DNA of 54,142 nucleotides from Paludibacteraceae bacterium (GTDB lineage: Bacteria; Bacteroidota; Bacteroidia; Bacteroidales; Paludibacteraceae): positions 1 to 54,142 of the forward strand of contig JAFUEI010000048.1 of NCBI GenBank assembly GCA_017464025.1, written 5' to 3'. The notes under the pieces are model-generated. The model searched no databases, had not been told where the DNA came from, and was given only the letters and a program-made list of their open reading frames with translations. Of the stretch, positions 21,438 to 36,395 are shown one piece after another. Each line of letters begins with the position of its first letter. Positions within the stretch are counted from its first letter, which is position 1. The position numbers and the translations under genes were made by a program.

Positions 21438-21501
21438 TCTTTCTGCTTCGTACCGCGAGCGGGGGTCGAACCCGCACAGCCGTTTCGGGCCAAAGGATTT
21501 T

Positions 21502-21938
21502 CTTGCTACACTTGGTTTTGCCCAAGCCATCCCCTGAATAGGAGGGGGATGTTGTAGTCTGGACTATTTCTTCACCATATCTGCAATAGCAGACACAGGT
21601 GCCTCCCGTATAGTCTCTACGCCGTTTATCTACGGATGCTCCGCAGAATTTAGTGAGCCATCGCCAAAGGGCAGGTTGCCCTGTCCGAGGTTTCTGTTTG
21701 TTAGAGAGGTTCTACTCACAAGGTTTCCCCTGTGGCACTCTTGTTCAGACCTCTGTAATTTTCCGTAAGAGCGTGGCAAGTCGGGCATAGAATCATCAAA
21801 TTCTCCAGCCGATTGTCTGATGTGTTGCCATTGATATGGTGCAATTCCAGAGGAATCTCTCTGCCTCGCCATTCCCATAAACCGCAACACTCGCATTTTT
21901 TCGAGCAGCTTCCTGAAAATTCTCTTTGGTCTTTTTCA
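21502..21938 (-). ncRNA. Group I intron inside tRNA-Leu(UAA)
   Basis: 437 nt. The 5' exon ends in U34 and the intron ends in G (position 21502), as required. Core elements are visible in the second half: P7 pairs GACTAT (21615-21610) with ATAGTC (21567-21562); P8 lies between them as CACC/GGTG plus TCTGC/GCAGA; the R-like segment GTAGAGACTATACGGG and the S-like segment AAGAAATAGTCC match the classical conserved boxes. A P9 domain follows, closed by CTACA/TGTAG, with CATCCCC/GGGGATG and CTTGG/CCAAG arms. P1 is weak: CTU of the exon could pair with GAG at 21924-21922. The 5' half is taken up by an HNH coding stretch. Confidence 0.85.
21716..21937 (-). pseudogene. HNH homing endonuclease domain within the intron (no start codon)
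   Basis: A 73-codon open stretch in the intron encodes a complete HNH core: zinc cysteines in KCECCG, catalytic HHINGN, DNRLENLMIL and CPTCH, ending in KSATGETL and a TGA stop. These are the signatures of small intron- and phage-type HNH nucleases. However, no ATG, GTG or TTG occurs in frame before the domain; the frame runs back into the tRNA exon and meets TAG in the D loop. The N-terminal helical region normally found in such proteins is missing. I read it as a degenerate homing nuclease whose active-site residues are still intact, or one started in a non-standard way. Confidence 0.75.
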
Positions 21939-21990
21939 AAGTCCTTCGTGTCTACCTATTCCACCATCGCGGCGTTTTCGTAAGCGGCTG

Positions 21991-35989: not shown

Positions 35990-36382
35990 GGGGCTGCTTG
36001 GTTTTGACAGCAGGTAGAACAGGTATGTAAGCATGCCGAGCCTTGCAGAATATGCTCGTTAAACTGAGTCTGTAGCACAATAACTGGCAACAACAACTAT
36101 GCTCTCGCTGCCTGATCGAAGTACAGTAGATCGGCCTTATTTCGGCACCAGGTGCTGAAACGGGATGTCTCGCCGAGCCGCGTCTGCGGGCTTACGGATT
36201 ACGGGGCACAGAAATACGCAGAATAGTCCTTGCAGGCTGCGATGCAGGGGCGAAACCGTAGCAGATAAGGTGTCGGTTGGTGGTCCGGGTCTTGCCGATA
36301 CACGAAAACGAAGGCCGGAATAAGCATGTAGAAAGCGTATTGGTTCCTTGTTTGGACGCGGGTTCGACTCCCGCCAGCTCCA
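35990..36382 (+). ncRNA. ssrA: tmRNA (transfer-messenger RNA)
   Basis: 393 nt. The tRNA-like ends pair as GGGGCTG with CAGCTCC, and the T arm GGTTCGACTCCC is near the 3' end; the 5' part reads GGTTTTGACAGCAGGT as in other tmRNAs. The tag frame at 36086-36115 is GNNNYALAA followed by TGA, close to the GENNYALAA-type tags of Bacteroidetes. CCA is not encoded. Rescues stalled ribosomes with SmpB and marks products for proteolysis. Confidence 0.94.
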
Positions 36383-36395
36383 CAGAATTCAGGAA

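Follow-up and report, generated by a model that had tools for sequence, protein, structure and literature searches.

The tRNA-Leu(UAA) intron of cyanobacteria, as papers that cite it describe it in the text available to us (PMC3984707, PMC4476775), likewise interrupts tRNA-Leu(UAA), with a group I core and a U at the end of the 5' exon, and it is by these descriptions that we liken the locus reported here to it. The cyanobacterial tRNA-fMet intron (Bonocora and Shub 2001) also lies in an anticodon loop, of another tRNA, and is reported to come with its own homing endonuclease. Phage introns to date were all in protein genes according to the accessible part of Hausner 2014 (PMC3984707), and the corresponding part of Yutin 2021 (PMC7886860) reports dense group I introns in crAss-like phages and names only protein genes as their hosts. 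For Lak megaphages, Devoto 2019 (PMC6784885) describes, in the passages available, tRNA genes with introns that are unclassified and "enigmatic," with Tyr and Thr named. The tRNAscan-SE 2.0 paper states, in the portion at hand, that the program is not designed for group I intron detection. No earlier report of a tRNA-Leu intron in Bacteroidales was found in the open-licence literature, which is only part of the whole.

The window, by which we mean the whole stretch of 54,142 nt analyzed here, carries on its minus strand a tRNA-Leu(UAA) gene (21973..21451) in two parts, with a 437-nt insert between U34 and A35, presumably the insertion site of the cyanobacterial tRNA-Leu(UAA) intron too. The gene is composed of the following parts.

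21939..21973, minus strand: tRNA-Leu(UAA) 5' exon, from the acceptor strand to U34; 35 nt, ending in GGACUU.
21502..21938, minus strand: group I intron, 437 nt, recognized by fold, covariation, and a match to the covariance model R2 described below; RF00028 gives 17.4 bits only.
21451..21501, minus strand: tRNA-Leu(UAA) 3' exon, from A35; 51 nt, beginning with AAAA; the discriminator is A and CCA is not encoded.

Joining the exons by script yields an 86-nt molecule with a full cloverleaf, which ARAGORN reads as tRNA-Leu(taa), and the two halves form an anticodon stem and an acceptor that are perfectly paired except for G-U pairs. In the raw window, the split gene was missed by ARAGORN, and no Rfam family reached its gathering threshold over it. 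An earlier note, made from the letters alone, had placed the insert between U34 and A35 of tRNA-Leu(UAA) and had given its length of 437 nt, its terminal G, the U at the 5' exon end, and the 86-nt joined product; the first is borne out by the joined exons (ARAGORN, cloverleaf) and the rest by the sequence. A tmRNA gene with the tag GNNNYALAA lies elsewhere in the window (35990-36385, plus strand).

The insert is a group I intron. It combines a paired P3-P9 core including P7, a terminal G, and a guide sequence that pairs with the 5' exon and places a U.G at the splice site; P4 is the exception, with no convincing pairing in the window-type introns (RNAalifold, 7 cores). Its elements are listed below.

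21735..21740, minus strand: internal guide sequence GAGUGC, forming P1 with the exonic GGACUU; this pairing puts a U.G at the splice site and contains a single G/G mismatch (inspection).
21717..21734, minus strand: P2, CACAGGG-GAAA-CCUUGUG (covariation).
21602..21709, minus strand: P3 (21709..21704 with 21607..21602), around P4-P6 and the P7 5' strand (covariation).
21562..21615, minus strand: P7 (21615..21610 with 21567..21562), around P8 (21601..21598 with 21576..21573) (covariation).
21506..21557, minus strand: P9 (21557..21553 with 21510..21506) (core alignment).
Within 21506..21557, minus strand: P9.1 (21551..21545 with 21534..21528) and P9.2 (21526..21522 with 21515..21511) (core alignment).
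21502, minus strand: terminal G of the intron (omega-G) (sequence).

Two covariance models were used. R1 was made from 13 introns, the window's included, by aligning the 3' half of the core and the start of exon 2. Because R1 includes the window, R2 was built from 12 relatives, with the window and its two closest kin left out; run on the 54-kb window at E values up to 10, it returned a single match, at 21620..21487 on the minus strand, with 70.4 bits and an E value of 6.2e-13. The Rfam model RF00028, which the earlier note had named as the check to run, fell short, matching 21756..21552 on the minus strand at a relaxed threshold with 17.4 bits against a cut-off of 50 (E = 0.076 in 851 bases), a score that would not by itself have settled the question. 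The gathering score of RF00028 is missed by 11 of 14 related loci and reached by 3 (L033, L044, and L168); the shortfall reflects the limited sensitivity of a single general model and not a defect in the structure.

The fold is documented by covariation. In P7, P8, and P9, 14 named pairs were followed through 13 sequences, the window included, and all 182 of the 182 cells pair; 7 of the 14 pairs show changes on both sides, the covariation score was reached by 0 of 500 shuffles, and sliding the partner by 1 to 3 columns as a control lowers pairing to 17 to 39%. Among the seven window-type cores, 31 of 55 RNAalifold pairs contain a double change, including pairs in P2, P3, P5, P8, P9.1, and P9.2, and P3 has double changes in 3 columns of alignment A1, in 3 sequences each. 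The guide GAGTGC is present in all 23 parsed introns of the genus. Together, the R2 match and the covariation of P7, P8, and P9 uphold the group I call of the earlier note, and the P7-P9 elements and the AAGAAAUAGUCC box that it had pointed out are both confirmed in the window intron. RNAalifold also proposed a helix between the guide sequence and the intron end and a hairpin inside the P7 5' strand; they were rejected for conflicts with P1 and P7, respectively.

The first reading overlooked that the first loop of the intron (L1) contains a gene for an HNH homing endonuclease; in the window, this gene is dead, and two remnants of it are left.

21903..21939, minus strand: remnant of the HNH N terminus (end approximate), in frame 2; compared with the related genus loci L092 and L098, it shares 9 of 12 residues with L098.
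21719..21916, minus strand: HNH C-terminal part in another frame, a pseudogene; PF13392 (HNH_3) at 29.4 bits, with a cut-off of 24.8.

The C-terminal part is 77% identical over 66 aa to the HNH protein of L092. The guide sequence stands at position 199 of the window intron, versus 449 in L092 and 452 in L098; about 250 nt, not a multiple of three, are missing from the window's HNH gene, and the remnants lie in different frames. The window has no intact HNH frame; its HNH motif scores above the Pfam cut-off. The motif was also looked for in three intact relatives, of which L092 stays below both HNH cut-offs (E = 3e-4). From the sequence, the gene may have started at a TTG that spans the exon-intron junction. 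In the phages cr126_1 (L056 2501-2724) and Arash (L058 2315-2715), the ends of HNH genes overlap or adjoin annotated, uninterrupted tRNA-Leu genes, which suggests that they encode stand-alone relatives of the intron endonuclease that target tRNA-Leu.

Relatives with exons apart first came to light when the gene was searched, as DNA, against 200 genomes of the family. The census of introns was made with R1, which replaced an exon-based census limited to at most 3 candidates per genome. Within the genus, R1 has a match in 24 of 178 genomes (13 of the 68 high-quality ones). The HNH frame is intact in 12 of these 24 introns (L092 to L098, L107, L110 to L112, and L114), decayed in 6 (the window, L101, L102, L103, L106, and L108), and absent in 5 (L099, L100, L109, L113, and L115); in the last, L105, the HNH region is cut off by the contig end. 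L112, of 690 nt, and L113, of 221 nt, have cores that agree at all but 1 of 190 positions, and the HNH block is absent in L113. L115, counted among the 24, is a further intron lineage from a genome with 7% contamination. All 23 parsed loci of the genus join to Leu(taa), 22 of them numbered alike and L115 with numbering offset by one base. The comparison of related genomes that the earlier note had called for also revealed empty sites: the exons are directly joined in 25 of 30 loci (L001 to L030) and interrupted in 4, and the remaining one, L030, was not caught by the exon patterns. The gene upstream of the tRNA is common to the window and to the uninterrupted loci L003, L009, and L013; the other flank gave no match. 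Three genomes from another genus of the family also bear introns. Hence, one genus displays every life stage of an intron: the empty site, the intron with its endonuclease, the decaying endonuclease, and the bare ribozyme.

Matches were also found in phages. The window gene has matches in ten Lak phages and in the crAss-like phage cr115_1, the latter at 78% over 164 nt. Pattern scans of IMG/VR were made as well, and R1, applied to 52 sources, matched 26 of them, with 29 matches in all and cr115_1 counted twice. Exon finding was applied to 24 phage loci: six in Leu(UAA) at U34/A35, one in Leu(UAA) at U33/U34 (L142), two in Lys(UUU) (L126 and L130), one each in Ile(UAU) (L132) and Arg(UCU) (L143), one in a clear CUA tRNA (cr115_1), six read as CUA, and six without assignment (L127, L137, L152, L134, and two Lak Leu genes); a full tRNA assignment is lacking for L127, L124, L137, L152, and L134. 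In the Prevotella phages Lak-B1 (L055) and Lak-C1 (L060), the tRNA-Leu(UAA) gene has two group I introns, one at U34/A35 and the other in the D loop (R1 35.8 bits, E = 4e-5); because of this double interruption, the exon-finding script gave no assignment for them.

In a midpoint-rooted tree of 56 intron cores, built on 205 columns, the window intron forms a group with L092 and L098 (100/98) within a clade of 19 introns, 13 from phages and 6 from bacteria (100/98). Most other introns of the genus fall into a second lineage of 21 bacterial introns, whose sister is the phage intron L157 (99/97). Because the two clades are each joined with phage introns, the same site was occupied at least twice in the genus, and since the two or more lineages present there are only distantly related to each other and each have close kin in tRNA genes of phages, phages are the likely reservoir or carriers of the intron. 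Of the two possibilities that the earlier note had offered, horizontal transfer or an overlooked lineage, both apply. Beyond its view were the introns in 23 further genomes of the genus, the second, distantly related lineage at the site, and the close relatives in phage tRNA genes.

Several long branches were flagged by the tree program, and with a midpoint root, the direction of transfer is one that we infer. The flow might have been the reverse, with phages acquiring the intron from the tRNA-Leu genes of their hosts, as phages take up host tRNA genes and several phage introns sit in Leu(UAA); however, the phage introns of the clade also occupy Ile, Lys, Arg, and CUA tRNAs, and the bacterial introns are nested among phage ones, under a root that does not fix direction, so we hold this course of events to be unlikely, if still the strongest competitor of phages as the source or vehicle.

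Wider samples were also searched. R1 matches 3 of 393 genomes in a sample of the order, two of them in the window's genus, which means that the trait is patchy, and 28 of 395 genomes in a sample of the phylum, the window's own genome included (27 of 370 high-quality ones). The 30 loci examined from these two samples were read as 7 Leu(UAA), 8 Met(CAU), and 3 Arg(UCU) genes, 5 loci with several readings, and 7 with no tRNA. The Met(CAU) introns were seen in other classes of Bacteroidota (L174 to L176, L179 to L182, and L184), with up to three intron matches per genome. Neolewinella agarilytica DSM 24740 (L044 1634-2377; Saprospiria) has a Leu(UAA) intron with an open HNH frame between U33 and U34. 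This position, one base upstream, is shared by L044, from a cultured type strain, L170, and L142. Plasmids, searched at the DNA level, gave no match. The Leu(UAA) introns of other Bacteroidota families (7 of the 30 loci) could be taken as survivors of an ancient intron of the phylum that descended vertically and has disappeared from most species, phages playing no part. Such descent is improbable given the 3 of 393 genomes in the order, the two distant lineages that share one site in the genus and group with phage introns instead of with each other, and the intact HNH frame in half of the genus introns, as expected of recent mobility.

Apart from its history, the intron occupies a gene that the cell appears to need. 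In the window's genome (G000), a draft that is 89% complete, a search for a second Leu(UAA) gene gave 31 further tRNAs, Leu UAG, CAA, and GAG among them, and none with UAA. The intron-bearing congener G165 (96% complete) has uninterrupted Leu UAG, GAG, CAG, and CAA genes, and the single-contig genome G976, from another family, has Leu GAG, CAG, and CAA; in both, a pattern search allowing up to 3 mismatches found UAA as a split gene only. Reading of the codon UUA falls to the tRNA with anticodon UAA, and this codon accounts for 20 of the 454 leucine codons in 10 genes of the window; since it is in use, splicing should be needed for life. The group I intron, at the site expected in tRNA-Leu(UAA), is almost certainly functional, and judged by its sequence, the intron RNA very probably excises itself from the tRNA-Leu transcript. 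The dead copy beside an intact gene, which the earlier note had considered, finds no support in G000, G165, or G976. That the locus is a non-splicing remnant, a dead tRNA gene with another Leu(UAA) in the missing 11% of the genome, is very improbable: the incomplete assembly, the dead HNH gene, and the subthreshold RF00028 score would fit it, but the anticodon stem and the acceptor pair, 14 of 14 named core pairs are kept, and the pattern search with up to 3 mismatches showed no second copy in either G165 or G976, both intron-bearing.

The best overall explanation, to which we assign a probability of roughly 0.93, is a phage-linked mobile group I intron with a decayed HNH gene in the only tRNA-Leu(UAA) gene found. 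By this account, the intron in the transcript would fold into P1 to P9, and guanosine would attack at the U.G pair of P1, immediately behind U34; the 5' exon released by this step would then attack after the terminal G, and joining of the exons would give the 86-nt tRNA, expected to read UUA and UUG. The intron would have arrived as a mobile element whose HNH endonuclease cut intronless tRNA-Leu genes, into which the intron was copied. As the HNH gene is now a pseudogene, with about 250 nt lost and the frame shifted, the window intron would at present be kept only by splicing and vertical descent.

The same intron family also occurs in phages that have recoded TAG. In cr115_1 (NC_055898.1), 34 genes were sampled: the 25 on the late strand contain 258 in-frame TAG among 18,083 codons, and the 9 on the other strand contain 1 in 3,350. 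No suppressor tRNA was found in its record or by ARAGORN on both halves, which gave only Leu, Leu, and Arg tRNAs and a tmRNA. The phage has a CUA tRNA split by an intron of the window family (L054 2428-2715; match L194 30559-30677) upstream of the terminase gene, and its relative cr53_1 has at the same place, after an identical 31-nt stretch, an uninterrupted CTA tRNA recorded as tRNA-Gln. A similar split tRNA with a Gln-like body, probably with anticodon CUA and cut between U35 and A36, is found in Lak-B1 (L196 1330-1461).

Six more phage loci from IMG/VR (L131, L135, L141, L144, L119, and L140) are probably CUA tRNAs split between U35 and A36, several of them Gln-like. ARAGORN scores Leu(taa), with another loop, equally or better for each of the six, and among the phage loci read as CUA, this is its top reading only in cr115_1 (L054). 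We prefer CUA, since this reading preserves U33 and a loop of 7 nt and since the Gln-like bodies and the recoding agree with it. Reading through TAG gives a clear coding gain for L131, L144, L119, L140, and L120, a moderate one for L127, and an absent or small one for L135 and L141; a gain is also seen without a CUA tRNA for L134, L118, and L126.

Yutin 2021 (PMC7886860) describes, in the text available, recoded crAss-like phages without a detectable suppressor, and according to the accessible portion of Crisci 2021, 38 of 51 Lak genomes have CTA suppressors. Since ARAGORN and the Rfam cut-offs overlook split genes, suppressorless recoded crAss-like phages may have a suppressor split by an intron. 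We lean, by a small measure, toward a single mobile group I family, specialized in anticodon loops, that moves between phages and Bacteroidota; it would hold the essential tRNA-Leu(UAA) in bacteria and split tRNA(CUA) in TAG-recoded phages, where the code switch would become ribozyme dependent, and it would explain at least part of the recoded phages without a suppressor. If so, splicing could even time the switch of the phage code to late genes. A split suppressor tRNA may thus be a concrete and checkable answer to the puzzle of recoded crAss-like phages. More broadly, the classic tRNA-Leu(UAA) intron gains hosts among the gut species of a bacterial phylum, the introns are tied to phages, and intron-split tRNA genes in neighboring species and phages escape the usual gene finders.

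The window intron differs from the cyanobacterial tRNA-Leu(UAA) intron in its Bacteroidota host and in the HNH gene, whole or as remnants, that loop L1 contains; cyanobacterial tRNA-Leu(UAA) introns are not known to have such a gene. The endonuclease of the cyanobacterial tRNA-fMet intron is reportedly not of the HNH kind. The Lak introns belong in our analysis to the window family and split Leu(UAA) as well as a Gln-like CUA tRNA, whereas those that Devoto 2019 (PMC6784885) describes, in the text available, are in Tyr and Thr genes and carry no group I assignment. The group I introns of crAss-like phages (PMC7886860) likewise belong to phages of Bacteroidota and are described, in the part of that paper at hand, in protein genes and not in tRNA genes.
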